The notes under the pieces are model-generated. The model was not told the origin of the DNA. It saw nothing but the letters and a program-made list of their open reading frames with translations, and did not search any database. A stretch of 64,000 nucleotides of DNA. Source: Bradyrhizobiaceae bacterium PARB1. GTDB lineage: Bacteria; Pseudomonadota; Alphaproteobacteria; Rhizobiales; Xanthobacteraceae. Every line of letters starts with the position of its first letter. Positions within the stretch are counted from its first letter, which is position 1. Position numbers and translations under genes: made by a program. Location: NCBI GenBank assembly GCA_002256345.1, contig NKIY01000005.1:314485-378484 (forward strand), given 5' to 3'. Shown piece by piece: positions 6,987 to 27,737 of this stretch.

Positions 6987-9575
6987 TCACTCGCCGTTTT
7001 CGCGCGGCTTGCCCATCAGGGCCGGCTGGAACAACAACACTGCCGCCAGCGTGACAACGAAGGACATCGCCAGCAATTTGCCCATGCTCGCAGTGCCCGG
7101 ATGGTTTGACAGCCAGAGGCTGCCAAAGGCCGTCGCCGTCGCCAGCGCGCTGAAGAAGATCGCGCGTGTCAGCGACGACTGCAGCAGGTTTTTGTAACCT
7201 GCACGCCAGGCGACGACATAGTAGATCTTGAACGCCACGCCGACGCCCAGCAGCAGCGGCAGCGCAATGATGTTGGCAAAGTTCAGCGGCAAGCCGATCA
7301 GCACGCAGATCTCCAGCGTCACCGCGCCCGCAACCAGCAGCGGGACAATGGTGAGGAGCACATCGACGAACCGGCGCAGCGCCAGCCAAAGCAGCAGCGA
7401 AATCGTGATCAACGCCCAGAGGCCTGCATGAATGAAGGCAGTCACGATCGTATCGCCAGACTTGAGGATAGAGACCGGGCCACCGACCGCGAGCGGCTCC
7501 GACTTCAGCACCGCATCGGCGAATTTGCGCAGCGTATCGTTGTCGTTCGGATCCCCGCTTGGCTGCGCCTCGACGCGAATCTGGCCATCCTTAGTCTTCC
7601 AGGAGTTGACGAGTTGCGGCGGCAGATTGTCGAGAGTGACCGGCGCCGCCTGCATGAGATTCCGAAGCTGCGCGAGTGCGATCTTCAGCGGCACGACGAA
7701 AGTCGCCTGCACCTGATTGCGCACGGCCTCGCTGGCATCGGCAGTCTTGGCGAGCGCATCGGCGAGCCGCTTGGCGGCCACCGCGCCCGGACCGGTCTGA
7801 TTACCTGCAAGCTTGCGCAGGCTCGCGGCCGAATCCTTCAGCGCGGTCACATTTTCCGCATCGGTCGGTGCCTGATCGACAGAGTCCGGATTGAGAGCGG
7901 GCTCCAGCACCTTCGCGCCAGCCTGAATGGCGGCAAGTTTGGCCGGCTGGTCCTGCGGTACGAAGCTGTCGAGCGAGATGGTACGCGCAACTTCCGGCAC
8001 CTTTGACAGACGTTCTTCGATCTGTTTCGCGCCGGCCTCGTTGGGCGCCATGATGTTCACGGCGTTCGCGCCAGCGTTGGGGTCACGGCGCAAGTCAAGG
8101 AAAGTGGCGATCGACTCGACATTCGGATTGCGCAGATTGATCGGATTGAAATCGAAGCGCAGGTGAGCCAGCAGCGGCAGGCCTGCGAGCGTCACGGCCA
8201 GCGTACCTCCAATGATCCAGTAGCGTTTCTCTTCGAGGAAACGATCGACCGGTGCGAGGAACGCATAACCGACAGGCTCTTTCTCGCCGGCCGGGTTCAG
8301 AAGATCGAGCAGCGCCGGCAGCATGGTGATGCTGGTAATGAACGCGATCATCATGCCGATGCCGGCGATTTTGCCGAGTTCGGACACACCTTTGTAGTCG
8401 GTCGGCAGAAACGATAGGAAGCCTGCGGCGGTGGCGAAGGCTGCGAGCGACAGCGGCACGGCACAATAGCTGGCCGCACTGGCGAGCGCTCCGCGGAGAT
8501 CATCTTTCTTGTAGCGCTCGGACCGGTAGCGGACGCTGAACTGAATGCCGAAATCCACGCCGAGACCGACGAACAAGACCGCAAAGGCGATCGACAAGAG
8601 GTTGAGCGATCCCACCATCATCAGCCCGAGTGCCGTCGTGATGGCGAGACCGACGAACAAATTCACGAACACTGCGCCGATGATCTTCGCTGAATGCAGC
8701 GCCAGCCACAGGATGCCCAGCACCAGCAGAACAGTGACGACGCCGTTGAGCACGGCACCGTCCTGCACGGTCGAGAACTCCTCGTTAGCGATCGGAACCG
8801 GACCGGTGAGACGCACCCGTGCGTCATAGTCACCGGCGATATTCAGATCGACAGCAGCCTGACGGATGGCATCGGTTGCGTCCTTGCCGGGCTCGAGCGC
8901 GGCAAAATCCAGAATAGGCTTCACCTCGATAAATGCCCGCTTGTCAGATTCGGTCAGCGGCTTGTCGCTGACGAGACCGCGCCAGGAGAACGTACCCTTG
9001 CCATTCTTCAGGACGTCCTCGACGGTCGCAGCGACGGAGTTGAACGTTCCGGCGGCGCTATCGAGCTGGAGCTGGCCGCGACGGATGCCTGTAAGACCGG
9101 TTTCGAGCGCGCCGGTGAGTCCACGGATACTGGGATCGCCGGCCATGATTTCGAGCAACGGCGCAGCCTGTTCGAACTGACCGGTCAGCCCCTGCACTTC
9201 CTTGGCGGGCAGGAACAATAGGCCATTCTTCTCGAAGAATTCGCCACCGTCCAGACGGCGGACGGAATCGAAGTCCTTCTTGTTGGGTGCGAGTTTTTTC
9301 TCGAGAGCGTTCGCCGCTGCATTGGCGAATTCAGGCGTCGGCGCCTCGACAACGGCAATGATGAGACGTTCCTGGTCGAACGCTTTGTCGAAGGCCATGT
9401 CGCGCTGGCGCCAGTCCAGATTCGGCGAGATCAGCTTGTTGATGTCGGTGTTGATCGAAAAATTCTTAGCCGAATACCAGGCGGAAGCGATCGAGAGCAG
9501 CACGCCGACAATCACCACCGGAAGCGCGAATCGGGTGCAGAAATTCACGATCGAGACGACGACTTTTGTCAGCAC
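6987..9575 (-). CDS. hpnN: Hopanoid exporter, MMPL/RND family (HpnN)
   Basis: The 862-residue protein has the two-fold RND/MMPL layout: one N-terminal membrane helix, a large periplasmic loop, a bundle of five helices (from about residue 270), then the same plan repeated. The segment FVGLGVDFGIQFSVRYRSERY is typical of MMPL porters. Length, topology and location next to ispH, hpnH and hpnO match HpnN, which in R. palustris moves hopanoids from the inner to the outer membrane. It is transcribed away from ispH. A possible EcfG-like promoter lies about 250 bases upstream. Confidence 0.88.
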   Translation of the reverse strand: MLTKVVVSIVNFCTRFALPVVIVGVLLSIASAWYSAKNFSINTDINKLISPNLDWRQRDMAFDKAFDQERLIIAVVEAPTPEFANAAANALEKKLAPNKKDFDSVRRLDGGEFFEKNGLLFLPAKEVQGLTGQFEQAAPLLEIMAGDPSIRGLTGALETGLTGIRRGQLQLDSAAGTFNSVAATVEDVLKNGKGTFSWRGLVSDKPLTESDKRAFIEVKPILDFAALEPGKDATDAIRQAAVDLNIAGDYDARVRLTGPVPIANEEFSTVQDGAVLNGVVTVLLVLGILWLALHSAKIIGAVFVNLFVGLAITTALGLMMVGSLNLLSIAFAVLFVGLGVDFGIQFSVRYRSERYKKDDLRGALASAASYCAVPLSLAAFATAAGFLSFLPTDYKGVSELGKIAGIGMMIAFITSITMLPALLDLLNPAGEKEPVGYAFLAPVDRFLEEKRYWIIGGTLAVTLAGLPLLAHLRFDFNPINLRNPNVESIATFLDLRRDPNAGANAVNIMAPNEAGAKQIEERLSKVPEVARTISLDSFVPQDQPAKLAAIQAGAKVLEPALNPDSVDQAPTDAENVTALKDSAASLRKLAGNQTGPGAVAAKRLADALAKTADASEAVRNQVQATFVVPLKIALAQLRNLMQAAPVTLDNLPPQLVNSWKTKDGQIRVEAQPSGDPNDNDTLRKFADAVLKSEPLAVGGPVSILKSGDTIVTAFIHAGLWALITISLLLWLALRRFVDVLLTIVPLLVAGAVTLEICVLIGLPLNFANIIALPLLLGVGVAFKIYYVVAWRAGYKNLLQSSLTRAIFFSALATATAFGSLWLSNHPGTASMGKLLAMSFVVTLAAVLLFQPALMGKPRENGE

Positions 9576-9981
9576 GCTTTATCTTTCTATCTGGACGAGG
9601 CTCGCAATGAATGCGGCGCGCTTCGATGGGCCCGCAAACGGTCACTTCGTAGCCGAAAGGTTGCGTTATCAGCAACGTGACTCGATGGCACAAAACTTGG
9701 GGTGGGACTTGAAGACAACGGCGACCGTCCTGTTATCGGGGCCAATGCGCCGGGTAAAATGACGAACTGTTGAGATTTTGCAGCATTCTTTGGCCTAAAT
9801 CCAAGATATCGTAAAGGGTTAGACCTTAACCCGCTGTGCGAAACCGCGTTCCCGTTTCGTGATTGCACACTGAGTGATTTTTGTCACACAGAACGGCTCA
9901 AATACCTAGCCGGGCTGGATATGTCCCTGATTATGGTACACATTTATCGTTTGTTGGACACTATTATGGATTCCGCTTCTC
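9576..9981. other. Divergent intergenic region between hpnN and ispH
   Basis: This 406-base gap holds no convincing gene. It must contain the promoters for both divergent genes. It is visibly more AT-rich than its flanks near 9780-9830 and 9930-9970. A weak EcfG-like element toward hpnN is listed separately. Confidence 0.6.
9828..9852 (-). promoter_or_regulatory. Weak EcfG-like promoter candidate toward hpnN
   Basis: Read on the minus strand, GGAAC (9852-9848) is followed after 16 bases by GGTT (9831-9828). This departs by one base from GGAAC-N16-CGTT, the pattern used by the alphaproteobacterial general-stress sigma factor EcfG. It lies about 250 bases before the hpnN start codon, so the leader would be long. 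Chance occurrence is quite possible. Confidence 0.3.
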
Positions 9982-10926
9982 GTGCTTGATCGCCGGCCTC
10001 TGGAAATCTACCTGGCTCAGCCTCGCGGATTCTGTGCGGGCGTCGTCCGGGCCATCGAGATCGTGGAGCGGGCACTCGAACGCTACGGCGCGCCGGTCTA
10101 TGTCCGCCATGAAATCGTGCACAACAAGCATGTGGTTGAGGCCCTGAAGGCCAAGGGCGCAATTTTCGTCAAGGAGCTCTCCGAGGTCCCGGAGGCTGCG
10201 ATGACGGTGTTCAGCGCTCACGGCGTTGCTCGCAGCGTCGAGGAAGAAGCCGAGACCCGCGGCTTGCCTGTTCTCGACGCCACCTGCCCGCTCGTCACCA
10301 AGGTCCATAACCAGGGTAAGCGCTACGTCGCCAAGGGCCGAACGGTGATTCTTATCGGTCATGCCGGTCACCCGGAGGTCGACGGTACCATAGGACAGGT
10401 TCCCGGCCCTATCTATATCGTGCAAAGCATCGCCGACGTGGCTGCACTAACGATTCCGATGGACGAGCCAGTAGCTTACATCACCCAAACGACCCTCAGC
10501 GTAGATGACACACGCGACATCATTTCCGCGTTACAGGCCCGATTTAGCGATATTCAAGGCCCGGACACCCGCGATATCTGCTATGCGACACAAAACCGCC
10601 AATCTGCGGTAAGAGACCTCAGCCGCCTCGTGGACGTGATCCTGGTCGTGGGGGCGGCCAACAGTTCCAACTCCAACCGACTCCGAGAGATCGGAACTGA
10701 GATCGGGGTCTCGAGCTACCTCATCTCCGATAGCAGCCAGCTGAACCCTGAATGGTTGAGGGGTGCGCGTGCGGTCGGCATAACGGCTGGCGCTTCGGCG
10801 CCGGAAGTGCTTGTAGACGAGCTGATTGAAACCTTGCGGCGGATTGGACCGGTCTCGGTGTCGGTCCTGCCGGGACGCGAAGAGACGATTGAATTTCGAC
10901 TACCCGCTGAACTGACCGCGGTTTGA
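9982..10926 (+). CDS. ispH: 4-hydroxy-3-methylbut-2-enyl diphosphate reductase
   Basis: IspH (LytB) catalyses the last step of the MEP pathway, giving IPP and DMAPP, the building blocks for squalene and hopanoids. The three iron-sulfur cluster cysteines are visible in PRGFCAGV (Cys18), [11 protein letters not shown] (Cys102) and DICYATQN (Cys200), together with the SSNSNRL substrate motif. At 314 residues it is full length. The start is GTG at 9982. An ATG at 9966 is out of frame, an in-frame stop lies at 9928, and no other in-frame ATG, GTG or TTG lies between. hpnH follows 53 bases downstream on the same strand. Confidence 0.95.
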
Positions 10927-10979
10927 TCCACCTTCGAGCTTCACCTTCGACATCGAAGATGCCCAGAAAGAAAACTGTA

Positions 10980-12155
<1,176 letters not shown>

Positions 12156-12176
12156 GGCGACTTACATACGGACAGC

Positions 12177-12209
12177 AAAAAGGGCGCGATGCAGATCGCG
12201 CCCCTTTTT
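12177..12209 (+). terminator. Intrinsic terminator downstream of hpnH
   Basis: A GC-rich stem (GGGCGCGAT, 12182-12190, pairing with ATCGCGCCC, 12195-12203) with the loop GCAG is flanked by an A run at 12177-12181 and a T run at 12205-12209. It lies 21 bases after the hpnH stop and could also act on transcripts arriving from hpnG on the other strand. Confidence 0.88.
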
Positions 12210-12227
12210 GATGTTCTGCAGCTCAAA

Positions 12228-12304
12228 CGGAGCGAAGCGCAATCCGGGAACTGTCGAGATGGCTGAAACGCTGATCCCCCGGATTTCGCTACGCTCCATC
12301 CGGG
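12228..12304. repeat. Palindromic intergenic repeat, family A, copy 1
   Basis: The left arm CGGAGCGAAGCGCAATCCGG and the right arm around 12279-12304 (CCGGATTTCGCTACGCTCCA and following) form an imperfect long hairpin. The spacer TGTCGAGATGGCTGAAACGC matches, with few changes, the spacer of the copy at 28394-28482. The two are therefore members of one dispersed family. Confidence 0.8.
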
Positions 12305-12315
12305 CGACGTAGAGT

Positions 12316-13050
12316 TCAGGCTTCCGCCGACGCCAATCCGATGCGGCTCAGCAGATAGCTGCGGCAATCCTTCAGGCTGCGCAGCGCGCGGTTGAAGTCG
12401 CGGCCGGTGGAAACCAGCGCACGGATCACCAGCGGATTACGTGCGATGCCGCGCAGAACCTTGCGAAGGTCAACGTCCCCGTTCGGCTTGATCGCGGTGG
12501 TGGCGATCTCCGGCAGCGCGCGCGTCGCGGGATCGCTGACGACACGCAGGGCCGCAAAGGGCAGCCCGGCCAATGCCGCGAATTCAGCCGCGATGTGGCT
12601 TTCCATATCGACGGCAGAGGCGCCGAATTCCGAGCGCAGGGCAGCCTTGCCGGCCTGCCCGGTCACAACCTTCTCCACGCCGACGAGACCGCCGCGAACG
12701 ACCTTCTGAGTGCCGACGCCGGAGCCTGCGAGCAGCTCGGCGCTCAGCTGTTCGGAAGCCGACCAGACCTGGCCGGCCGCGACCACTTCCGTGGCCAGAA
12801 CAACGGTGCCGGTCCTGAGCGCGGGATCGAGGCCACCGGCGACACCGAAGGAGATGACGCCGCGAATGCTGAGGGGATCGATATCGGCGAGCAGGCTGCG
12901 GAGCTGGACCGGATCGCTGGACGAGCAGATGACCGTCATCCCCGGCCCGGCTGCGATCTTCGCTTCCTGGACCAGACCCGTCACAATCAGTACCGGCCGC
13001 GGATCGATGGACGTCGCCGCAGCGGAAATGCCCCCATCACCCAAGATCAC
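12316..13050 (-). CDS. hpnG: Hopanoid-associated phosphorylase / nucleosidase (HpnG)
   Basis: HpnG removes adenine from adenosylhopane to give ribosylhopane. The protein begins near PRPVLIVTGLVQEAKIAAGPG and has the nucleoside-phosphorylase-fold segments ISFGVAGGLDPALRTGTVVLA and ASAVDMESHIAAEFA, the latter carrying the Met-Glu substrate motif. The start chosen is GTG 13050, whose GTGA overlaps the shc stop codon, giving 244 residues. A longer reading into shc is unlikely because the extra residues are shadow sequence. It is the last gene of the hpnC-D-E-shc-G run. Confidence 0.88.
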   Translation of the reverse strand: MILGDGGISAAATSIDPRPVLIVTGLVQEAKIAAGPGMTVICSSSDPVQLRSLLADIDPLSIRGVISFGVAGGLDPALRTGTVVLATEVVAAGQVWSASEQLSAELLAGSGVGTQKVVRGGLVGVEKVVTGQAGKAALRSEFGASAVDMESHIAAEFAALAGLPFAALRVVSDPATRALPEIATTAIKPNGDVDLRKVLRGIARNPLVIRALVSTGRDFNRALRSLKDCRSYLLSRIGLASAEA

Positions 13051-15008
13051 ATCCCGACTCCGACCGTCCTGCTGTTGGTGCTCTGCAAATTCCGGAACCG
13101 CGCCAACGCCCAGAGCGGAAAGAATTTCGAGTAGCCATGATATCGCAGATAAAACACCCGCGGGAAGCCAGTGGCAGTGTATCGGGCCTCGTCCCACAGT
13201 CCTTTTTCGTTCTGTGTGGCCATTAAGTATCGCATTCCGCGTTCCACCGCCGGGTTGTCGGCCTCGCCTGCTGCCATCAGAGCAAGCAAGGCCCATGCCG
13301 ACTGCGACGACGTCGACGGGGCGGCTTCGAATCCCTGATAGTCGAGCCTGTAGCTGACGGCATCCTCACCCCAGCCGCCGTCCTCGTTCTGGATCGAATA
13401 CAGCCATGCGACCGCCTTGCGCATCACCGGGTCCTGATGATCAACGCCCGCCATGTTCAGGGCGCACAGCACCGACCAGGTTCCGTAAATGTAATTGAGA
13501 CCCCAGCGGCCATACCACGAGCCCTCGGCAAGCTGGGTACGGCGGAGATATTCGACCGCATCGGCCAGCGGCTTCGAGCTTTCGACCGTATCCCCGAGCT
13601 GCGCCAGCATGGAGACGCAGCGCGCGGTCACGTCCTCGGTCGGCGGATCGAGCAGAGCGCCGTGATCCGAGAACGGGATATTGTTGAGGTAGTGATAGTG
13701 GTTATCGACATCGAAGGCGGCGAAGCCGCCGTCGCTGCTCTGCATGCCAAGGATCCACTCCTTGCCACGATCGATGGCCTGATCGTAATCCTTGCTGCCG
13801 GTCTGCCGGCGCGCACGGTCCATCGCCATCATCACGACAGCAGTGTCGTCGAGATCGGGATAGTGCGCGTTGTTGTACTGGAACGCCCAGCCGCCCGGTC
13901 GCAGATCGGGTCGCTTGTCCGCCCAATCGCCCTTCACTTCCAGTTCCTGCCGGGGCACCAGCCAGTCGAGACCGCGCTTGGCCTGCGCGAATGTATCTTC
14001 GCCGCCAGCTTCCAGCATCGCATGCGCCGTCAGCGCAGTATCCCACACCGGCGAGACGCAGGGCTGGCAATACGCTTCGTGGTCCTTGATCACGAGCAGC
14101 TTGTCGATGCCGCGGCGCTGGATCGCGCGTTGCGGATGATCTTCGGGATAACCGAGGACGTCGTAGATCATCACCGCGTTGGCCATCGGCGGGAAGATGG
14201 CGCCGACGCCGTCCTCGCCATTCAGGCGCTCCTCGAAGAAGGCGACTGCCTTGTCGATCGCTCTCTGGCGAAACTTTTTCGGAAAATACGGTTCGGCAAC
14301 GCGCAGCAGTTTGTCGATGCCGGTGAAGAAGGCGAACCAGGCACGGTTCTGATGCGGCGCGCGGGCCAGGGTGCCGATCGTGCGCGGATCCTGCAGGAAC
14401 AATTCGTCGACGCCGACCCCCTTCGGATTCTTGGCCCGCGCCTTCTTGGCCGCCAGAACGATCAGGGTCACGACGGTGGTACGCGCCCAATAGGACATCT
14501 TGTTGAGGTGGAACGGAAACCACGTCGGCAGATGCATGATCTCGACCGGCAGTACGGGAACACTGCGCCAGTCGAGTACGCCGAACATCGAGAGCAGAAA
14601 ACGCGTGAAGACGTTGGCATTGATCGCGCCGCCGCGCTCCAGCGCCGCCTCGCGTGCTCGCTTCATATGCGGCGCATCGATGTCATCACCGATCATCTTC
14701 AGCGCGAAATAGGCCTTCACCGTCGCGCTCATGTCGAACGGACCGTCATGCACCAGCGGCCAGCCGCCATGGGCGCCCTGGATGCGGCGCAGATAGTTGG
14801 CGATCTTGGCTTCGAGTTCGGCATCGACCGGCTCGGCCAGGAAGTGCCGCATCAACACATACTCGGCCGGGATCGTGGCATCGGCCTCGAGCTCGAACAC
14901 CCAGTGGCCATCACTCTGCTGGAAATCCAGCAGGCTCTTCTTGGCCGATGCGATGCTGCCCTCCAGCTCCGCCCTGTCGATGGTGAGTTCAGAAGTGGTC
15001 GATGACAT
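13047..15008 (-). CDS. shc (hpnF): Squalene-hopene cyclase
   Basis: Squalene-hopene cyclase folds squalene into hopene/diplopterol at the inner membrane. The 653 residues are full length. The catalytic acid motif DxDD reads DLDD at residues 385-388. Several QW repeats are present (GSWYGRWGLNYIYGTW, QNEDGGWGEDAVSY, QSAWALLALMA). The ATG at 15008 begins MSSTTSELTIDRAELEGSI. It follows hpnE by 60 bases and overlaps hpnG at its stop codon, so the genes form one transcription unit. Confidence 0.96.
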   Translation of the reverse strand: MSSTTSELTIDRAELEGSIASAKKSLLDFQQSDGHWVFELEADATIPAEYVLMRHFLAEPVDAELEAKIANYLRRIQGAHGGWPLVHDGPFDMSATVKAYFALKMIGDDIDAPHMKRAREAALERGGAINANVFTRFLLSMFGVLDWRSVPVLPVEIMHLPTWFPFHLNKMSYWARTTVVTLIVLAAKKARAKNPKGVGVDELFLQDPRTIGTLARAPHQNRAWFAFFTGIDKLLRVAEPYFPKKFRQRAIDKAVAFFEERLNGEDGVGAIFPPMANAVMIYDVLGYPEDHPQRAIQRRGIDKLLVIKDHEAYCQPCVSPVWDTALTAHAMLEAGGEDTFAQAKRGLDWLVPRQELEVKGDWADKRPDLRPGGWAFQYNNAHYPDLDDTAVVMMAMDRARRQTGSKDYDQAIDRGKEWILGMQSSDGGFAAFDVDNHYHYLNNIPFSDHGALLDPPTEDVTARCVSMLAQLGDTVESSKPLADAVEYLRRTQLAEGSWYGRWGLNYIYGTWSVLCALNMAGVDHQDPVMRKAVAWLYSIQNEDGGWGEDAVSYRLDYQGFEAAPSTSSQSAWALLALMAAGEADNPAVERGMRYLMATQNEKGLWDEARYTATGFPRVFYLRYHGYSKFFPLWALARFRNLQSTNSRTVGVGM

Positions 15009-15068
15009 GATGTTCGCTAGATCTCCGTATGCGTCGTAATTCTTGGGTGGCCCGGGCCGTGTTTCGGT

Positions 15069-16319
15069 TCAGACCTTCCCAAGCGCCATGTCGGCGGCGC
15101 GATCGCCGGAGCGGATCGAGCCCTCGATGGTCGCCGGCAGGCCAGTATCGGTCCAGTCGCCCGCCAAAAACAGGTTCTTGAATTCGGTACGCGTGCCGGC
15201 GCGCAATGCGTCCTGCGCTGGCGTCGCGGCAAAGGTCGCACGGCGCTCGCGCACGATCTGCCAGGCAGGCAACGGCGCCGAGATGTGCGAGAGCTTGCAG
15301 ATTTCGTCCCAGATCTGCTGCGCAAACTCCTCGCGCGGCAGATTCACGAAGCGATCGCCATTGCTGATGGTAATCGAGAAGCGATTGTCGAAGGCGAACA
15401 GCCACTCGACGATGCCACCCGTCACGCCAACCAGTGCCGGATGGCCGGCCGGCGGCAGATAGTTGAAATGCGCATTGACGATGGCGCGGAATTCCGTCGG
15501 CGTCTTCACGCCCGGCAGCAGGTTCTTCGCAGTCCAGGCCGGCACGGCCATGACGACGACATCGTCGGGACCGAGCGCGATCGTATCTTCAGCGCCAAAC
15601 TTCAGTTCGCCGACACGATCGCCAGCCATGGTATAGCCGCGCAGTTCGTGACCGAAGTGAACGCCTGCGCCCTTCTTGCGCAGCATCTCGACGGCGGGTT
15701 CGACCAGCACGTCGCTGAGGCCGGAGCGCGCGATCAGGGGGCGGCACGCCTGCCCGCCCGCCAGCAGCGTCTCGCGCACGATGGCGCCGGCCAGACCGGC
15801 CGACCCTTCCGGCGGATCGACATTGAGCGCAGCGAGCAGCAGCGGCTGCACGAGGCGATCATAGAGCACGCCTTCGCATTTGATGGTGTCGCCGACGAGC
15901 TTGTCGTTGCCGGCCCACAGCAGCGGCGTCAGCGCGAAGTAATCGCCGACCGACGTATCGGGCACGCGGCGCGAGGCGTCGAACAGCCAGGTCGGAATGC
16001 GGCCATCGCCAAGATCGATCTGCCAGCGCTTGCCGGATTCGAGATCGGCAAAGGCAAATTGCGCGCGCGCCGGACCAACGAGGCCGGCTTCGGTGCCGAT
16101 CGACCTTGCGTAGTCGATGACATGGCTGTTGCCCGACAGGACAAGGTGATTGCCGTTGTCGATGGTGAGGCCGGTCTGCGCATCGAAGTAGGAGCGGCAG
16201 CGGCCACCGGCCTGCTGTGTCGCTTCGTGCACATGGACCTGATAGCCGGCATTACTGAGACGCACGGCGGCGGCAAGGCCGGACACGCCGGCACCAATGA
16301 TATGAGCGGTTTTGGACAT
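15069..16319 (-). CDS. hpnE: Hydroxysqualene dehydroxylase, FAD-dependent (HpnE)
   Basis: HpnE reduces hydroxysqualene to squalene, the last step of the HpnC/D/E route. The protein starts MSKTAHIIGAGVSGLAAAV with the Rossmann FAD motif GAGVSG at residues 9-14. A second FAD-contact segment, LFLAGDWTDTGLPATIEGSI, lies near the C-terminus, as in phytoene-desaturase-like amine oxidases. The ATG at 16319 shares one base with the hpnD stop (TGATG), which fixes the start. The length is 416 residues. Confidence 0.92.
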   Translation of the reverse strand: MSKTAHIIGAGVSGLAAAVRLSNAGYQVHVHEATQQAGGRCRSYFDAQTGLTIDNGNHLVLSGNSHVIDYARSIGTEAGLVGPARAQFAFADLESGKRWQIDLGDGRIPTWLFDASRRVPDTSVGDYFALTPLLWAGNDKLVGDTIKCEGVLYDRLVQPLLLAALNVDPPEGSAGLAGAIVRETLLAGGQACRPLIARSGLSDVLVEPAVEMLRKKGAGVHFGHELRGYTMAGDRVGELKFGAEDTIALGPDDVVVMAVPAWTAKNLLPGVKTPTEFRAIVNAHFNYLPPAGHPALVGVTGGIVEWLFAFDNRFSITISNGDRFVNLPREEFAQQIWDEICKLSHISAPLPAWQIVRERRATFAATPAQDALRAGTRTEFKNLFLAGDWTDTGLPATIEGSIRSGDRAADMALGKV

Positions 16320-17161
16320 CAGATAATCGCGTATCGCAGAAGGATCGCTATCTTGGAGGCCTTGCCGAGACGAACGGGATCGCGCGGCAGAGCGAAGCCG
16401 CGTTTCACCAGCAATTCCAGGATGGCGTGGTAGTATTTCGACATGATCCGCGGCGCACGCACGGTGCGGCGCTTGTTGCGGGCCATGATCTCGTCGGACT
16501 TCTTGAAGTGCTCCTGTGCCCGGCGCACCAGGGGCGCGCACACCTTCGGAAGCGCCTTCTCGGCGATCACCACCTGCGGGTCGCTGGAGGTGATGCCAGC
16601 ATGATAGAGCAGTTCGCGCGGCAGATAGAGACGGCCGAGCGTGGCGTCTTCATCGATATCGCGCAGAATATTGGTGATCTGCAGCGCGCGGCCGAGATGA
16701 TGGGCGAGCAGCACGCCGTCCTCATCGGGCATGCCGAACACCTTCACCGACAGGCGGCCCACGGCGCTCGCTACGCGGTCGCAATAGAGATCAAAGGTCG
16801 CCTCGTCCGGCGCGCGTATATCGGCAGGAATATCCATCTCCATGCCGTCGATCACGGCGAGATAATCTTCCTTCAGCATGCCGAAGCGCTTGATCGGCTC
16901 GACGTAATCGCGCACGCGCGGCGGCGGGTTGCCGGCATAAAGCGCCTCGATGTCGTCACGCCACTGCTGCATCTGGGCAAGACGCAGGTCGCGCGCTTCA
17001 TGCGAGTCGGCGATATCATCGACCTGGCGGCAGAAGCTGTAGATCTGAAACATGGCGTCGCGCTGCTCGCGCGGCAGAATCTTCATCGCCGCATAGAACG
17101 ATGAACTCGCGGCGACACCTTCGACTTCGCTGGTCTCGGTCTGTGTGTTCATCTGATTCAT
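16319..17161 (-). CDS. hpnD: Presqualene diphosphate synthase (HpnD)
   Basis: HpnD condenses two farnesyl diphosphates into presqualene diphosphate. Both aspartate-rich motifs of trans-isoprenyl head-to-head synthases are present: QVDDIAD (Asp48, Asp49, Asp52) and NILRDIDEDATLGRLYLP around residue 170. The start ATG at 17161 forms an ATGA overlap with the hpnC stop, giving 280 residues. It is transcribed with hpnC before it and hpnE after it. Confidence 0.93.
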   Translation of the reverse strand: MNQMNTQTETSEVEGVAASSSFYAAMKILPREQRDAMFQIYSFCRQVDDIADSHEARDLRLAQMQQWRDDIEALYAGNPPPRVRDYVEPIKRFGMLKEDYLAVIDGMEMDIPADIRAPDEATFDLYCDRVASAVGRLSVKVFGMPDEDGVLLAHHLGRALQITNILRDIDEDATLGRLYLPRELLYHAGITSSDPQVVIAEKALPKVCAPLVRRAQEHFKKSDEIMARNKRRTVRAPRIMSKYYHAILELLVKRGFALPRDPVRLGKASKIAILLRYAII

Positions 17162-18036
17162 TTGCCGGCCGCCGGACGCGAGAGCGGCGCAGAGGTCGTG
17201 GCGCGGCGCCAAAGGCAGCCCGCGATGGCGGTCAGCGCATGCAGCGCCATGCTGCCCTTGGAGAGATGCACCTTCTCACCGAGCGGATCGCGCACCCGCA
17301 GCAGCTTTGAAATTTCCCAGGCAAATTTTTCGATCACCGCGATATTGCAGGCGAAACGCGTATCCGCCATGTGCACCGTCAGGCTGTCGCCCTCGCACAG
17401 CAGTGCCTCGTTGCGCGCGACAAGATCGCGCAGACAGGCCAGCAGCTCCGGTGAGGACGCCGGCTTGTCGAGCGCTTCGACGCTGACGCCGTGCCGCTGC
17501 ATGACGTCCTGCGGCAGATATACGCGGTCGAGGTCGCGGTAATCCTTGGCGCAATCTTGCAAGTGATTGTTGATCTGCAGTGCTGCGCAGATCGCGTCGG
17601 ACGCCGGCCAGGTGGCTTTATCTTCGCCATGAACTTCCAGCATGAAGCGGCCAACCGGCATCGCTGAGAATGAGCAGTAATGGATCAGCTCGTCCCAATC
17701 CGCATAGCGCAGCTTGGTGACATCCATCCGGAATGCGGTGAGCAGATCAAGCGCATGGCGCGGCGGCATATTACGCTCGGCAAAGGCGGCGCGCAGCGTA
17801 TTCGCCTCGGCCTGTTCGTCATGCTTGCCGAGCAGGCCTTGCTCCAGTTCGTCCAGCATTGCGAGCTTCGTCGAAGCGTCGAGCAGCGCATGGTCGGCGA
17901 TGTCGTCGGCGGTGCGGACGAAATTGTAGAAGGCGAGAATCAGCGCCCGGTGTCGCGGATGGATGATCCTGGACGCGACCGGGAAATTCTCGTCGCGATC
18001 GGTCTTGCCGGATCGCAGCTCGCTCGCAGGGGTCAT
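17158..18036 (-). CDS. hpnC: Hydroxysqualene synthase (HpnC)
   Basis: HpnC converts presqualene diphosphate to hydroxysqualene. It is a squalene-synthase-like protein of 292 residues with the first aspartate motif in RTADDIADHA (Asp44, Asp45, Asp48) and a second region NNHLQDCAKDYRDLDRVYLP. It is the promoter-proximal gene of the hpnC-D-E-shc-G run. The ATG at 18036 is preferred to a TTG one codon earlier. The 215 bases upstream, before the small Cys-rich gene, must hold the promoter; I cannot pick a clear -35/-10. Confidence 0.92.
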   Translation of the reverse strand: MTPASELRSGKTDRDENFPVASRIIHPRHRALILAFYNFVRTADDIADHALLDASTKLAMLDELEQGLLGKHDEQAEANTLRAAFAERNMPPRHALDLLTAFRMDVTKLRYADWDELIHYCSFSAMPVGRFMLEVHGEDKATWPASDAICAALQINNHLQDCAKDYRDLDRVYLPQDVMQRHGVSVEALDKPASSPELLACLRDLVARNEALLCEGDSLTVHMADTRFACNIAVIEKFAWEISKLLRVRDPLGEKVHLSKGSMALHALTAIAGCLWRRATTSAPLSRPAAGK

Positions 18037-18251
18037 CAATCTGGGCTTCGTTCAATGAAAACTGGGGTGAAGCGGAGGCCGTCGCGGTTATAAAATACCA
18101 ACCGACGGGCTATCTGCGCCCTCATATAGGCCAAATCGGCCAGCGAAACCAATGCCAATATGCCACCTTCGGCCGCAGCAAGAGCCGGGCCGGAACACCT
18201 TCCGGCGGGCTCGCGATAAGCGCCACGAGCCCGAAATCGGTGATGGGACGC

Positions 18252-19577: not shown

Positions 19578-21947
19578 CTACTCCATCCCCTTCGCCAGGG
19601 TCGATTTGCCTGTCAGCTTCTGCTGCAACTGGATCAGCCACATCGATGTCGGGCGCAGGATGAAGAGGTCGGCGACCAGCGCCGCCACCATCGAGAAGGC
19701 GCTGAGCCAGCCGAACAGCCGCAGCGATGGCAGATCGGAGAACACCGTCACCACGAGGCCGCAGGCCAGCACCACCGTCGTGAGGATGAGCGCCGGGCCG
19801 ACCAGCACGGTCGCGCGTTCGACGGCGACCGCCGGATCGGTGCCCGGCGTATCTTCCAGCCGAAGGCGGTTGAGGAAGTGGATGGTCGCGGACAGGCCGA
19901 GACCGAAGGAGACGGTGAGCGCGACCACGCTGGCGAATTGCAGCCCCTCCCCGAGCAGCCACAACACGAAGCCCGAGAGAACCACAGGGAAGATGCCCGG
20001 CAGGATGCAGGCCAGCATCACCACCCAGGAGCGGAAAGCGAGGCCGATGAAAATCGCCACCAGACCGAACTCGATGGTCAGGCCGTGATTGAGCTTCTCG
20101 ATCATGCCGGCACTGTTGCGCGCGGCGATCGCCGAGAGTCCGGTGACTGCGATCTCATAACCGGGATGCGCACTGCGAACGGTGTTCAGCGCCGTGTCGA
20201 GCTTATCGACCACCGGCAGGATCTTGCTGGCATCGCTGTCAGGCACGCGGCCCGACACTACCACCGCCGTTTTGTCAGCCGAGATGAAGCGGCGCACCAG
20301 ATGTTCAGGAATGACGTCGACATATTCCTTCAGCGTGGCGACATCGGTCGAGCCCGCCTTTTCCGCCAGCCAGCGGCGCAGGGTTTCCAGCGACCAGACA
20401 TTGCCGACACCGGATGTCTTCTCGACCATCGCATGCACATCGGCGATGGTCTTGAGCGTTTCGGGTGAATACAGGTCCTGTCCCTTCGGAAACTCGATCA
20501 GCACGTCGATGGGATTGGCGCCGGTGAGCTTGGCATCGAGACGGCCGCTGGCCGCCACTGCCTGTTCCTTGTCCGGCACCTGATCGGCCAGACGATAGCG
20601 CGGCTCGAGGCTCGCATAGACGGAGCCGAGACCGAGCACGACGAGTAGCGAGATCAGGCTGAACAGGCCGGGACGTCCGACCATACGCACCGCGATCCAG
20701 TAACAGAAAGCACGCAGTGCCTGCACGCCGGCATCGGCCGCCTGGAACTTGGCGGCGAAGATCTTTTCATTCCGGACCAGCAGCACACCGAATACCGGCA
20801 CCAGCGACAACACCGCGACCAGTGCGATGATGGTTGCGGTCAGACCCGCCTCGCCAAAAGCGCGGATCAGGTCCGAGTCCGAGAACTGCAGCGCCAGGAA
20901 CGAAATGCCGGCCGTGCCATGCGTCAGCACGCAGGCCGGTCCGACCACGCGCACCGCATTGGTGAAGGCCGAGTATTTGTCCTCGCCGGCAATCAGGCGA
21001 TCGCGGGCCGCAAAGGTCAGCTGCATGGAGTCCGCAAAACTGATCACCATGATCAGCGGCGTCATCACATTGAGGAACATGTTGAGGCTGAAGCCGGCCC
21101 AGCCGAGCGCGCCGAGGGACAGCAGGATCGCCAGCAACGGCGGGAACGCCGCCACGATCATGAAGGAAATCTTGCGGAAGAAGATGATGGCAATGATGCA
21201 ACCCGCCAGAATGCCGGCGACATTATACATCAGGCCGTCGCGCTCGACCGCATTGCGGATTTCGAGCTGCATCACCGGCACACCTGACAATTCCTTGGTC
21301 AGGCCGGAATTCGCCAGATCCTCGTTCATCGTCTTGCGGATATCTGCGATGACGCCCGTGAGCTTGTTGTTGCTCACCACGGCCGGATCGAGCGACAGCA
21401 CCACCAGCGCCAGCGTGCCGTCTTCCGACAGCAGCTTGCCGCGGATCAGTTCGTTCTGCTTCACCGTCTCGATGAACTGATCGTAAGCGGCGCCTTCCGG
21501 CAGCTCGTTCGGAAACAGTGCCGCCGGCAGTCTGCCCGGTGCCGGCGTCTGCCGCGCCGAAAAGATCGAAATCAGGCCGCGCACGCCATCGACGAGCTGC
21601 AGGTCGGTCACGAGATCGCGCATCTTTTCCAGATTGTCGCGCGCGAGCAACGTCTTGCCTTCGAGCACCACCAGCACGTCGAATTCGGTGGACGGGAAGC
21701 GTTTGGTCACTTCCTCGTATTGCTTGTATTCCTTGCTGTCGGAGCGAAACAGCTGACTCAGCGAATCGTCGATCTTGATGCGCTGGATGCCAAACACGGC
21801 GCCGATCACCAACACCAGCAGGATGATACAGGACAGCACCGGCGCGCGAACGGCGATCAGACCCATACGCTCGAGGCCGAAGGCAATGCTGGACGGCCCA
21901 CGCCGCAATTTCTTGATATCGGCGTCGTGGGAGCTGATTTGGTCCAT
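19578..21947 (-). CDS. Second MMPL/RND-family transporter of the hopanoid island
   Basis: The 789-residue protein has two MMPL/RND repeats. Each has one helix, a periplasmic loop and a five-helix bundle; the conserved region LNMFLNVMTPLIMVISFADS lies in the first bundle and VALTVSFGLGLSATIHFLNR in the second. This matches the hydrophobe/amphiphile porter subgroup that includes HpnN. It has no membrane-fusion or outer-membrane partner nearby. Its place between hpnC and hpnP/eutC suggests lipid or hopanoid traffic, which is inference. The ATG at 21947 begins MDQISSHDADIKKLRRG. Confidence 0.8.
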   Translation of the reverse strand: MDQISSHDADIKKLRRGPSSIAFGLERMGLIAVRAPVLSCIILLVLVIGAVFGIQRIKIDDSLSQLFRSDSKEYKQYEEVTKRFPSTEFDVLVVLEGKTLLARDNLEKMRDLVTDLQLVDGVRGLISIFSARQTPAPGRLPAALFPNELPEGAAYDQFIETVKQNELIRGKLLSEDGTLALVVLSLDPAVVSNNKLTGVIADIRKTMNEDLANSGLTKELSGVPVMQLEIRNAVERDGLMYNVAGILAGCIIAIIFFRKISFMIVAAFPPLLAILLSLGALGWAGFSLNMFLNVMTPLIMVISFADSMQLTFAARDRLIAGEDKYSAFTNAVRVVGPACVLTHGTAGISFLALQFSDSDLIRAFGEAGLTATIIALVAVLSLVPVFGVLLVRNEKIFAAKFQAADAGVQALRAFCYWIAVRMVGRPGLFSLISLLVVLGLGSVYASLEPRYRLADQVPDKEQAVAASGRLDAKLTGANPIDVLIEFPKGQDLYSPETLKTIADVHAMVEKTSGVGNVWSLETLRRWLAEKAGSTDVATLKEYVDVIPEHLVRRFISADKTAVVVSGRVPDSDASKILPVVDKLDTALNTVRSAHPGYEIAVTGLSAIAARNSAGMIEKLNHGLTIEFGLVAIFIGLAFRSWVVMLACILPGIFPVVLSGFVLWLLGEGLQFASVVALTVSFGLGLSATIHFLNRLRLEDTPGTDPAVAVERATVLVGPALILTTVVLACGLVVTVFSDLPSLRLFGWLSAFSMVAALVADLFILRPTSMWLIQLQQKLTGKSTLAKGME

Positions 21948-22143: not shown

Positions 22144-22917
22144 TCAACCAGCCGGAGCGGCCAGATGCATTCCGCTTTCGTCCTTCAAGGCGATACCAGT
22201 GACGCCGCGCCGCAGGCCTTCTCGCGCCAGCCACGCAATCTTGATGGCGGCCTCGTCGAAGCTCAATCCGGCCACCTGGATATTGGAGACGCAGTTCCGT
22301 TCGGCATCGCTGCGGCCCGGTTTCGGCGCTGTCGTGATATAGGCGCCGAGGCTCTGCGGCGCCGACAGGCCAGGCCGCTCGCCTATCAGCATGACGGTCA
22401 TCCGCGCCTTCAACAATGCACCAATCTCGTCGCCGAGCGCCACGCGCGCGCCACTCGCGACGACCAGCGGGCCAAGCGACAGGCTATCGAGCCTTGGCAG
22501 CAGTGCCGCGACCAGACCGAGAGCATGAGCATTGACCGCTGCCGGCGAAAGCCCGTCGGCAATAACGAATCCGATGTCACAGCCATCACCGCCCAGCCTT
22601 TCAAGCACGGAGCGCGATTCGGGAGCGAGCTTGCGGCCGAGATCGGGACGCTTCAGGTAATCCGCGCGGCCAGCGACAAGGCTCGACACTGTCTGTGCCA
22701 TGTATCCTTGCGCGGCCAGCGCCGCTGCGATGGCTTCTGATTCGAACGGCGCATGCACCGCATCGCGCGCCCGGGCATGATCGAGGGTGAAATCGAGCAG
22801 CGCCTGTGTCGTGAGGCTTGCGCCGGCGCGGCCGAGGCCGACACGCGCCGGCGTCAGTCGTCGCAAATCGGCAGTCCCGCGAATCGGAGGCAGCGTCATC
22901 TCGGAGGACTCGGCCAT
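22144..22917 (-). CDS. eutC: Ethanolamine ammonia-lyase small subunit
   Basis: EutC with EutB forms the adenosylcobalamin-dependent lyase that splits ethanolamine into acetaldehyde and ammonia. The segments [37 protein letters not shown] and SRSVYL-like [11 protein letters not shown] equivalents ([13 protein letters not shown]) are typical of EutC. ATG 22917 has AGGTGAG upstream; a GTG at 22929 directly after the hpnP stop is the alternative. Either way the gene is immediately behind hpnP, 12 bases or less from its stop, so the two are probably co-transcribed. The large subunit gene lies on the other side of hpnP. Confidence 0.88.
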
Positions 22918-24525: not shown

Positions 24526-24574
24526 CTAAAAACCTCTGCGAATGCATCAGCGGTCCCTGCGCTGAACCATTAAT

Positions 24575-24599
24575 AACGTCGCCGAGATAAAACCGTTCC
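24575..24599 (-). promoter_or_regulatory. EcfG general-stress promoter of hpnP
   Basis: On the minus strand GGAAC (24599-24595) is followed after exactly 16 bases by CGTT (24578-24575). This is the full consensus for EcfG, the alphaproteobacterial general-stress sigma factor. The -10 end lies 50 bases before the hpnP ATG. Published work on R. palustris reports that EcfG controls hpnP, so motif and biology agree. eutC, placed right behind hpnP, would be under the same promoter. Confidence 0.82.
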
Positions 24600-24695
24600 A
24601 CTCCGTTCGAATGCCGATCAAATCACGTTCGCCAAATCTGAGCCAGAATTTCTTCAACATTGTGACGGGTGGTGACACGGACGTGATGCGGCCTT

Positions 24696-24780
24696 GTCGT
24701 CTCCGCGAAAGCCGGGCGGCGGCGATGCAGCTTGGTCATCTCGCCCGACCTTATGGATCCGGGCTTTCGCCGGGATGACC
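24696..24780. repeat. Palindromic intergenic repeat, single copy in window
   Basis: GTCGTCTCCGCGAAAGCCGG at the left pairs with CCGGGCTTTCGCCGGGATGA at the right end, with a middle hairpin around 24730-24755. It directly follows the eutB stop on the downstream side and may limit read-through from eutB into hpnP. Confidence 0.65.
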
Positions 24781-24783
24781 AGG

Positions 24784-26190
24784 TCAGGCGATCAGCCGCG
24801 CTGCGAAATCCGGCAGCTTGCCGCCCTGGTCGCGGATACGCAGATCGCCGCCGGCAATACCCATCCGCACCAGCCAGTCGTCGAATTCCGGGGCGCGTTT
24901 CAGGCCGAACAGATCACGCAGATAAAGCGCATCGTGGAAGGACGTCGACTGGTAGTTCAGCATGACGTCGTCGGCACCGGGCACGCCCATGATGAAATTA
25001 ACGCCCGCCGCAGCCAGCAGCGTCAGGAGATTGTCCATGTCGTCCTGATCGGCCTCGGCATGGTTGGTGTAACAGACGTCGACGCCGAGCGGCAGGCCGA
25101 GCAGCTTGCCGCAGAAGTGATCCTCAAGACCGGCGCGGATGATTTCCTTGCCGTCATAGAGATATTCGGGGCCGATGAAACCGACCACGCTGTTCACCAG
25201 CAGCGGCGAAAAAGCCCGCGCCACCGCATAGGCACGCGCCTCGCAAGTTTGCTGATCGACGCCGTGATGCGCGTCGGCGGACAACGCCGAGCCCTGCCCG
25301 GTTTCGAAATACATCACATTATCGCCGACCGTGCCGCGCTTCAGCGACAGGCCGGCGTCATGCGCCTGCTTCAGCAGCGCGAGATCGATGCCAAAACTCC
25401 TGTTCGCAGCTTCGGTGCCGGCGATGGACTGGAACACCAGATCGACCGGCGCACCCTCCGCGATCAGATCGATCGAGGTGGTGACATGAGTCAGCACGCA
25501 ACTCTGCGTGGGGATGTCGAGCCTGATGATGACATCGTCGAGCATCCGCACCAGCCGGCCGAGCACGGCAGGATCGTCGCTGGCCGGATTGATGCCGATA
25601 CAGGCATCGCCGGCGCCGAGCATCAGGCCATCCAGCATCGAGGCGGCAATGCCTCGGACGTCGTCGAACGGATGGTTCGGCTGCAGGCGCACGCTCATGC
25701 GGCCGCGCAGGCCAATGGTGTTGCGGAAGCGGGTGATGACCTCGCACTTCTTCGCCGCCAAAATCAGATCCTGATTGCGCATCAGCTTGGAGACGGCAGC
25801 CGCCATTTCCGGCGTGACGCCGGGCGCAAGCATCTTCAGCGCTTCGGGCGTTGCGGCGTCCGACAGCAGCCAGTCGCGAAAGCTACCGACCGTGAGCGAT
25901 GCGATGGGCGCAAAGGCGGCTGCGTCATGCGTATCGACGATGAGGCGCGTCACCTCATCGTTCTCATAGGGAATGACGGCTTCGGTCAGGAACTGCCTGA
26001 GCGGCAGTTCGGCCAGCGCCATCCGCGCGGCGATCATCTGCTCGGCCGTCTCCGCCGCGATGCCGGCAAGGCGATCGCCGGAGCGCGGCGGCGTGGCCTT
26101 CGCGAGCAGATCGCGAAGATTCGCGAAGGTATAGGTCGTGCTGCCGATGCTGTGGCGATAGGTCATGCCGCTATTGTTGGTCATGACCAT
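24784..26190 (-). CDS. eutB: Ethanolamine ammonia-lyase large subunit
   Basis: EutB carries the active site and cobalamin contacts of ethanolamine ammonia-lyase. Recognisable parts are YRHSIGSTTYTFANLRDLLA and PRSGDRLAGIAAET near the N-terminus, FRNTIGLRGRMSVRLQPNHP, VVGFIGPEYLYDGKEIIRAG, and the C-terminal MGVPGADDVMLNYQSTSFHD. ATG 26190 (AGGG seven bases upstream) is used. ATG 26166, which starts MTYRHSIGS, matches the family's common start and is the alternative. It lies 23 bases after the altronate dehydratase stop and 258 bases before hpnP. No eut shell or reactivase genes are nearby. Confidence 0.92.
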   Translation of the reverse strand: MVMTNNSGMTYRHSIGSTTYTFANLRDLLAKATPPRSGDRLAGIAAETAEQMIAARMALAELPLRQFLTEAVIPYENDEVTRLIVDTHDAAAFAPIASLTVGSFRDWLLSDAATPEALKMLAPGVTPEMAAAVSKLMRNQDLILAAKKCEVITRFRNTIGLRGRMSVRLQPNHPFDDVRGIAASMLDGLMLGAGDACIGINPASDDPAVLGRLVRMLDDVIIRLDIPTQSCVLTHVTTSIDLIAEGAPVDLVFQSIAGTEAANRSFGIDLALLKQAHDAGLSLKRGTVGDNVMYFETGQGSALSADAHHGVDQQTCEARAYAVARAFSPLLVNSVVGFIGPEYLYDGKEIIRAGLEDHFCGKLLGLPLGVDVCYTNHAEADQDDMDNLLTLLAAAGVNFIMGVPGADDVMLNYQSTSFHDALYLRDLFGLKRAPEFDDWLVRMGIAGGDLRIRDQGGKLPDFAARLIA

Positions 26191-26213: not shown

Positions 26214-27737
26214 TTACATCGTGGCGCCCAGCACCCATGGCGCGAATTCGGCGCTGCCGACATCAAAACCCTCGCTCTTGGTGCGTTGGCCCGATGCCGT
26301 TGCGAGCATCAGATCGAAGATGCGCTGGCCGCATTGCTGTACGGTCTCGTCGCCGTCGAGCACGGTGCCGCAATTGATGTCCATGTCGTCTTCCATGCGC
26401 TTGAACATCGGCGTGTTGGTGGCCAGCTTGATCGACGGCGCCGGCTTGCAGCCGAACACGCTGCCGCGGCCGGTTGTGAAGCACACCATATTGGCACCGC
26501 CTGCGACCTGACCTGTCGCGGCGACGGGGTCGTAGCCGGGCGTGTCCATGAAGACGAAGCCCTTTTTGGTGATGGCCTCGGCATAGTTGAGCACATCGAC
26601 GAGATTGGTCGAACCGGCCTTGGCCATGGCACCGAGCGACTTTTCAAGGATCGTCGTGAGACCACCGGCCTTGTTCCCGGGCGAGGGGTTGGCGTTCATC
26701 TCGGCGCCCTCCCGCTCGCAATATTGCTCCCACCAGCGCATCAGGCCGACCAGCTTTTCGCCGACCTCGCGCGAGACGGCGCGGCGTGTGAGCAGATGTT
26801 CGGCACCATAGGTCTCCGGCGTTTCCGACAGCACCACCGTGCCGCCATGGCGCACCAGCAGATCGCTGGCAGCGCCGAGTGCGGGATTGGCGGAAATGCC
26901 CGAATAGCCATCGGAGCCACCGCATTGAAGCGCGACGGTGAGTTCGCTCGCGGAGACCTCTTCACGCGTCACCTTGTTGGCGTCGGCGAGCGCTTCCTTG
27001 ACGAAGGCGATGCCAGCTTCGGTGGTCTTGCGCGTGCCGCCGATCTCCTGGATCTGCATCTCGCGCAGCCGGCCGGCGAGCTTTTGCTCCTGCATCAGGC
27101 CACCGATCTGGTTGATCTCGCAGCCGAGGCCAAGCACGACGACATGCGAGAAATTCACGTGACGCGCATAGCCGCCAAGCGTGCGGCGAAGCAGCGTCAA
27201 CGGTTCGTCCTGCGTCATGCCGCAACCGGTCTTGTGGGTCAGCGCGACGACGCCGTCGACATTGGGATAGTCGGCGAGCGGATCGTGACCGCTGAAGGGA
27301 TTGCGCTTGAAAACGTCGGCGACGAGGCTGGCCACATGGGCGCTGCAATTCACCGAGGTGAGCAGGCCGATATAGTTACGCGTGGCGACGCGGCCGTCGC
27401 TGCGTCTGATGCCCATGAAGGTCGCGGGCAGATCGAAATTCGGCGTCGGCTTCACATCGACGCCATAGGCATAATCGCGGTCGAAATCGCCCATGCCGCA
27501 ATTCTGGGTGTGAACGTGCTGGCCGGGCGCGATGGGCTGGGTGGCGAAGCCGATGATCTGGCCGTAGCGATAGATCGGCTCGTTCACGGCAATGGGCCGG
27601 ATCGCCACCTTATGACCGGCGGGAATGCGCTCCGAGGTGACGACGCCCTTGGCGACCTCGACGCCCGGCAGCAGCATGGTGCGCGCGATCAGGACAGCGT
27701 CGTCGGGATGCAGGCGGATGACGGGAGACGGAGACAT
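26214..27737 (-). CDS. uxaA: UxaA-family altronate dehydratase (hydrolyase)
   Basis: The protein of 507 residues joins an N-terminal SAF domain (about residues 10-85, AGHKVAIRPIAVNEPIYRYG) to the large UxaA C-terminal domain (VVALTHKTGCGMTQDEPL, VLGLGCEINQIGGL, LQCGGSDGYSGISANPALG). UxaA removes water from D-altronate to give 2-keto-3-deoxygluconate in hexuronate breakdown, though related hydrolyases act on other sugar acids. ATG 27737 has AGGAAA upstream; an open frame continues further but without coding features. No other hexuronate genes are near, so the exact substrate is open. eutB follows after 23 bases. Confidence 0.85.
   Translation of the reverse strand: MSPSPVIRLHPDDAVLIARTMLLPGVEVAKGVVTSERIPAGHKVAIRPIAVNEPIYRYGQIIGFATQPIAPGQHVHTQNCGMGDFDRDYAYGVDVKPTPNFDLPATFMGIRRSDGRVATRNYIGLLTSVNCSAHVASLVADVFKRNPFSGHDPLADYPNVDGVVALTHKTGCGMTQDEPLTLLRRTLGGYARHVNFSHVVVLGLGCEINQIGGLMQEQKLAGRLREMQIQEIGGTRKTTEAGIAFVKEALADANKVTREEVSASELTVALQCGGSDGYSGISANPALGAASDLLVRHGGTVVLSETPETYGAEHLLTRRAVSREVGEKLVGLMRWWEQYCEREGAEMNANPSPGNKAGGLTTILEKSLGAMAKAGSTNLVDVLNYAEAITKKGFVFMDTPGYDPVAATGQVAGGANMVCFTTGRGSVFGCKPAPSIKLATNTPMFKRMEDDMDINCGTVLDGDETVQQCGQRIFDLMLATASGQRTKSEGFDVGSAEFAPWVLGATM

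Follow-up and report, generated by a model that had tools for sequence, protein, structure and literature searches.

A candidate EcfG stress promoter in front of hpnP, between the split ethanolamine ammonia-lyase genes of Bradyrhizobiaceae bacterium PARB1

Does the general stress response switch on hpnP in Bradyrhizobiaceae bacterium PARB1, and does the ethanolamine ammonia-lyase gene behind it follow? How hpnP is switched matters to geobiology, since fossil 2-methylhopanes are taken as traces of particular microbes or conditions. Under stress, PhyR pulls NepR away from the sigma factor EcfG, and Kulkarni, Wu, and Newman reportedly described EcfG-controlled hpnP in Rhodopseudomonas palustris TIE-1 in 2013. 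We analyzed the hpnP locus of PARB1 within a 64,000-nucleotide stretch of contig NKIY01000005.1, referred to here as the window. An earlier note on this DNA had invoked EcfG control of hpnP as known from R. palustris, and it is indeed already published that EcfG raises hpnP in strain TIE-1 (stated in PMC4676935); a second paper describes stress-responsive control of hpnP (PMC4337730). Judged by its sequence and conservation, the PARB1 site is a well-supported candidate EcfG promoter in an unusual, long-kept gene setting, from which we infer a consequence for ethanolamine use. The features of the locus are listed in Table 1.

Table 1. Features of the hpnP locus and their positions in the window
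Feature	Position	Strand	Remarks
MMPL/RND (HAE3-type) transporter gene	19578..21947	-	Behind eutC
eutC, ethanolamine ammonia-lyase small subunit	22144..22917	-	NCBIfam NF003971, 294 bits (cut-off 230); Pfam EutC
eutC start	22917	-	ATG, likely; ORF opens at GTG 22929
hpnP, radical SAM protein, 531 aa	22930..24525	-	Pfam Radical_SAM and DUF4070
Likely ribosome-binding site of hpnP, AGAGG	24533..24537	-	7 nt before ATG; judged from the sequence
EcfG-type promoter (candidate)	24575..24599	-	-35 GGAAC 24599-24595; 16-nt spacer; -10 CGTT 24578-24575
Conserved block CACAATGTTGAAGAAATTCTGGC...GTGATTTGATC	24616..24664	-	In the eutB-hpnP gap, ahead of the EcfG site
REP-like inverted repeat	24692..24783		Right behind eutB; 25-nt arms, 80% complementary
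eutB, ethanolamine ammonia-lyase large subunit	24784..26166	-	NCBIfam NF011649, 714 bits (cut-off 554)
eutB start		-	Likely Met25 of the ORF opening at 26238, from where relatives' matches begin

The motif and the gene behind it

The motif is where the earlier note had put it. GGAACGGTTTTATCTCGGCGACGTT has all parts of an EcfG promoter, a GGAAC -35 element, a spacer of about 16 nt, and a CGTT -10 element, on the strand of the gene it precedes. It begins 74 nt upstream of hpnP and leaves 49 bases before the ATG, where 50 had been claimed. The same pattern, GGAAC-N16-CGTT, is given as the R. etli EcfG1 motif in PMC3892343. By itself, the motif proves nothing, as its counts show no excess. Two matches with spacers of 15-18 nt were observed in the window against 1.42 expected, and the exact N16 form occurs 93 times in the genome against 92 for the reversed pattern, so most exact matches in PARB1 are likely accidents. 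Genome-wide motif counting was therefore abandoned as evidence, and conservation was used instead. A related pattern, GGAAC-N16-GGTT, lies on the minus strand at 9828-9852, 253 nt before the ORF start of hpnN, the hopanoid transporter gene; it is either a second EcfG-like site or chance.

The gene behind the site encodes a radical SAM protein that we take, by its context and by what is known of its family, to be the hopanoid C-2 methylase. The protein has a single match in its own genome at E <= 0.001 and is encoded near hopanoid genes, with shc and hpnC, D, E, G, H, and N in the window at 6987-18039. For these reasons, we keep the name hpnP for the gene of this putative hopanoid C-2 methylase. 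The NCBIfam matches of the protein include no curated HpnP model, and its other matches fall under their cut-offs. The closest named relatives are mostly Tardiphaga.

PARB1 also has the genes of the general stress response. Grouped in its genome are the genes for NepR, PhyR (364 bits, cut-off 240), and an ECF sigma factor (390 bits against NF009192, cut-off 307) whose gene directly adjoins nepR and is, by this position, taken as ecfG. The GGAAC promoters of nepR and phyR have a 16-nt spacer like the hpnP site, although their -10 elements read CATT and CGTA instead of CGTT. In 20/20 genomes, GGAAC-N16 followed by NATT, CGTT, or NGTA is present in both directions within the 400 nt that precede the NepR match, a count made without a shuffle control.

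Conservation of the site upstream of hpnP

We pooled 80 hpnP loci from titled genome records with the loci from 198 searched family genomes (171 including the window). Loci whose hpnP agreed exactly in its first 600 nt were treated as duplicates and removed, leaving 152 distinct loci. The test region was the 250 nt upstream of hpnP, and the controls were 30 dinucleotide shuffles, the antisense strand, and the reversed sequence. Strict GGAAC-N16-CGTT is found in 16/152 loci (shuffle mean 0.17, antisense 0, reversed 1), and the relaxed GGAAC-N15-17-NGTT in 57/152 (shuffle mean 1.6, antisense 3, reversed 2); because the loci share ancestry, these matches do not count as independent draws. In the 250 nt before the neighboring genes, the relaxed form is found at 0/86 for eutB, 0/98 for eutC, and 2/115 for the RND transporter gene. 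Where hpnP, eutB, and the RND gene could all be tested (83 loci), it occurs before them in 19, 0, and 1 loci, respectively. The motif is conserved upstream of hpnP orthologues more than upstream of neighbor genes, except within a 62-locus Bradyrhizobium clade. The site in PARB1 could be a chance match, as the genome and window counts above would allow; however, the conservation of the motif and its specificity for hpnP contradict this, and we give a chance match almost no credence.

In the Tardiphaga clade, every one of the 14 loci has GGAAC in one column of an alignment that was built without the motif. The -10 element there is CGTT in 7 loci, another NGTT in 5, and NATT in 2, and 13 of the 16 spacer columns vary. 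The sites for this tally were chosen with a pattern demanding GGAAC and TT, so the invariance of those positions within it is partly by construction; the column alignment is unaffected. The shared -35 element, the 16-nt spacing seen also at nepR and phyR, the presence of NepR, PhyR, and an ECF sigma factor, and the precedent in TIE-1 (PMC4676935) together make EcfG control of hpnP well supported as a sequence-based prediction. PARB1 would resemble R. palustris TIE-1 in having hpnP under the general stress sigma factor.

Ten of the loci belong to a genus (g28) that we take for Rhodopseudomonas. GGAAC-N15-17-NGTT is present in 10/10, 118-127 nt upstream of hpnP in 8 and 46-47 nt upstream in 2, whereas the PARB1 site, with its full CGTT, starts 74 nt before hpnP. 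In 9/10, hpnP lies between eutB and eutC as in PARB1. The accessible parts of the literature on EcfG control of hpnP in TIE-1 do not mention this eut setting. The main text of a B. japonicum start-site paper (PMC4842269) mentions neither hpnP, hopanoid, ethanolamine, nor GGAAC, and EcfG appears there in a reference only. Our comparison takes the likely EcfG-hpnP link beyond a single strain to many of the family's genera, and it also locates where the link may be weakened or missing, namely the main Bradyrhizobium clade.

Within this clade of 62 loci, defined on the hpnP tree, GGAAC-NGTT occurs in none, GCAAC-NGTT in 24, and none of three forms (GGAAC-N15-17-NGTT, GCAAC-N15-17-NGTT, and GGAAC-N16-NATT) in 38; one subclade of 33 loci has no site of any form. 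All three forms are absent from 62/152 loci overall and from 39 of the 96 loci in which hpnP is nested between eutB and eutC. The GCAAC sites of the clade lie ~106-146 nt upstream of hpnP (e.g., L059-L062, L091, and L145). Over the whole collection, GCAAC-N15-17-NGTT precedes hpnP in 33/152 loci (shuffle mean 1.6), eutB in 1/86, eutC in 1/98, and the RND gene in 1/115, and this enrichment over both shuffles and neighbors marks it as a real element. It may be a weaker EcfG site, since PMC6599016 gives GCAAC variants as putative motifs for EcfG-dependent Sphingomonas melonis genes. Yet genus g25, which is taken for Bradyrhizobium because its loci fall inside this clade, keeps GGAAC in the nepR/phyR region in 10/10 genomes. 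EcfG control of hpnP may have been weakened or lost in the main Bradyrhizobium clade.

The split eut genes and the transcripts that may cover them

The earlier note did not mention that hpnP separates the two subunit genes of ethanolamine ammonia-lyase. Both EutB and EutC score over their curated cut-offs, and hpnP sits between their genes. An ordinary eutBC operon has the same two genes in the same order and strand as PARB1, but they are contiguous. In the 198 family genomes, we found 105 eutB matches, 100 of them paired with a same-strand eutC and 5 without a placed partner. The pairs are contiguous in 62 cases (19-143 nt between match ends) and split in 38, each with hpnP inside. The split order is present in 38/96 family genomes with a long hpnP match (>=54% identity); among the same 96 genomes, 41 have no eutB match and 19 have contiguous eutBC, two of them besides a split copy. 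Among the 152 distinct loci, 96 have the nested order, and no other order was seen where both eut genes are in view. We found no report of the nested eutB-hpnP-eutC order in the literature searched, which covered open-licence papers.

An EutB tree made by a quick method from 49 nested and 19 contiguous rows places the nested proteins on one side of one branch with a support of 99. The sampled split EutBs thus form one clade, which makes a single ancestral insertion of hpnP between the two eut genes likely. On the hpnP tree (FastTree), the nested state requires at least 8 changes; this fits one insertion with later eut losses and is also compatible with transfers. The GGAAC site is present in 26/96 nested loci and also in 31/56 loci not scored as nested (one, L032, ends before eutB would show), which argues that the stress promoter travels with hpnP and not with eut. 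In one genome of the same genus as PARB1 (G189), a gene that by eye resembles those of outer-membrane proteins lies between eutB and hpnP (L240, 3229-5923), and the assembled eutB runs across two reading frames.

On the other side, eutC closely follows hpnP. The hpnP stop codon (TAG, 22932-22930) and the likely eutC ATG are separated by 12 nt, and AGGTGAG overlaps the TAG and precedes that ATG by 7 nt, so any promoter of eutC alone would most likely have to lie within the hpnP coding sequence. A possible eutC start, taken as the nearest start codon, falls within -60 to +30 nt of the hpnP stop in 91/98 loci. Two loci, L112 and L160, have ~280-420 nt of extra sequence between the genes, so tight coupling of hpnP and eutC is not universal. 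The short gap and the widely kept order suggest that eutC is co-transcribed with hpnP. The earlier note had placed eutC under the EcfG control of hpnP, and this finds partial support: co-transcription is suggested, but a eutB transcript may also feed hpnP and eutC.

That transcript could even dominate. EcfG might drive hpnP while eutC is expressed chiefly from a long eutB-hpnP-eutC mRNA, in which case EcfG would add little to eutC and the enzyme would stay balanced. The three genes share one strand, eutB and hpnP are 115-273 nt apart in the 96 nested loci, and no terminator-like site was found in the window's eutB-hpnP gap. However, the REP-like inverted repeat right behind eutB may lower read-through, and the gap contains conserved promoter-like elements in many loci. 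We regard a dominant long mRNA as a serious possibility, though one somewhat short of even. The REP-like repeat has 13 sites in the genome including this one (<=2 mismatches; none for the reversed pattern), and it is present in the gap of 1/96 nested loci, the window's own.

A second promoter-like element in the gap is the block CACAATnTTGAAGAATTTCTGGCCCAGC...TGnTTAGAT, found between eutB and hpnP in 84/96 nested loci. CACAATnTTGA with at most one substitution occurs in 84/96 (shuffle mean 0.4) and TGnTTAnAT in 37/96 (shuffle mean 0.5). This strongly conserved block may serve as a regulator site or as a vegetative promoter of the extended -10 type, and if it is a second promoter, hpnP and eutC need not depend on EcfG. 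Taken further, hpnP would be transcribed mainly from this block, with the EcfG site minor or dead. Its wider distribution (84/96 nested loci vs 26/96 for the GGAAC site) and its presence in Bradyrhizobium loci that lack the GGAAC site would favor such an arrangement. Against this, a sigma-70 scan of the window's gap found no site, the window carries a changed -10-like sequence (TGATTTGAT), and the Tardiphaga-clade loci keep the GGAAC site in 14/14, so we think it unlikely that the block is the main promoter. The CACAATnTTGA block is preceded by GCAAC in 29 loci and followed by GGAAC in 18, namely 11 Tardiphaga-clade loci and L046-L048, L151, L153, L168, and L170. We abandoned the idea that the promoter elements swapped order in Tardiphaga, as the block-then-GGAAC order is not confined to that clade and the Bradyrhizobium order may equally be derived.

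How the site may act on hpnP and eutC

We consider it probable that a working EcfG promoter drives hpnP and eutC under stress, and not eutB, after an insertion of hpnP that split eutBC. PhyR would take NepR from EcfG, and RNA polymerase with EcfG would initiate a few bases past CGTT, near 24567-24569; the leader would be ~42 nt long and would contain AGAGG ahead of the ATG. The mRNA would carry hpnP, then eutC, and would perhaps run on into the RND gene. If hpnP was inserted together with its own promoter, the subunits of ethanolamine ammonia-lyase would now be encoded on opposite sides of a stress promoter. No GGAAC-type site precedes eutB, and eutC lies directly behind hpnP, so EcfG is expected to increase hpnP and EutC and to leave EutB as it is, and the subunits would become unbalanced. 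The splitting of an unrelated two-subunit enzyme by hpnP thus yields a simple prediction open to testing, namely that stress affects ethanolamine use as a side effect.

Steps of 2-methylhopanoid synthesis and of ethanolamine breakdown are both cobalamin-dependent. One might speculate that the insertion was kept because it put EutC, and hence ethanolamine breakdown, under the general stress response. Cells would then switch two processes together, stiffening their membranes with 2-methylhopanoids and disposing of the ethanolamine that comes from phospholipid turnover, with EutB supplied separately. We hold this last idea to be quite doubtful.

In 115/152 loci, hpnP is followed within 3.5 kb by the RND gene on its own strand, and some of the remaining loci end early. 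The RND gene comes immediately after hpnP in relatives that show no eut genes in view, which makes it a steadier neighbor of hpnP than eut. The HAE3/MMPL transporter that it encodes is distinct from HpnN and is a candidate partner of 2-methylhopanoids.
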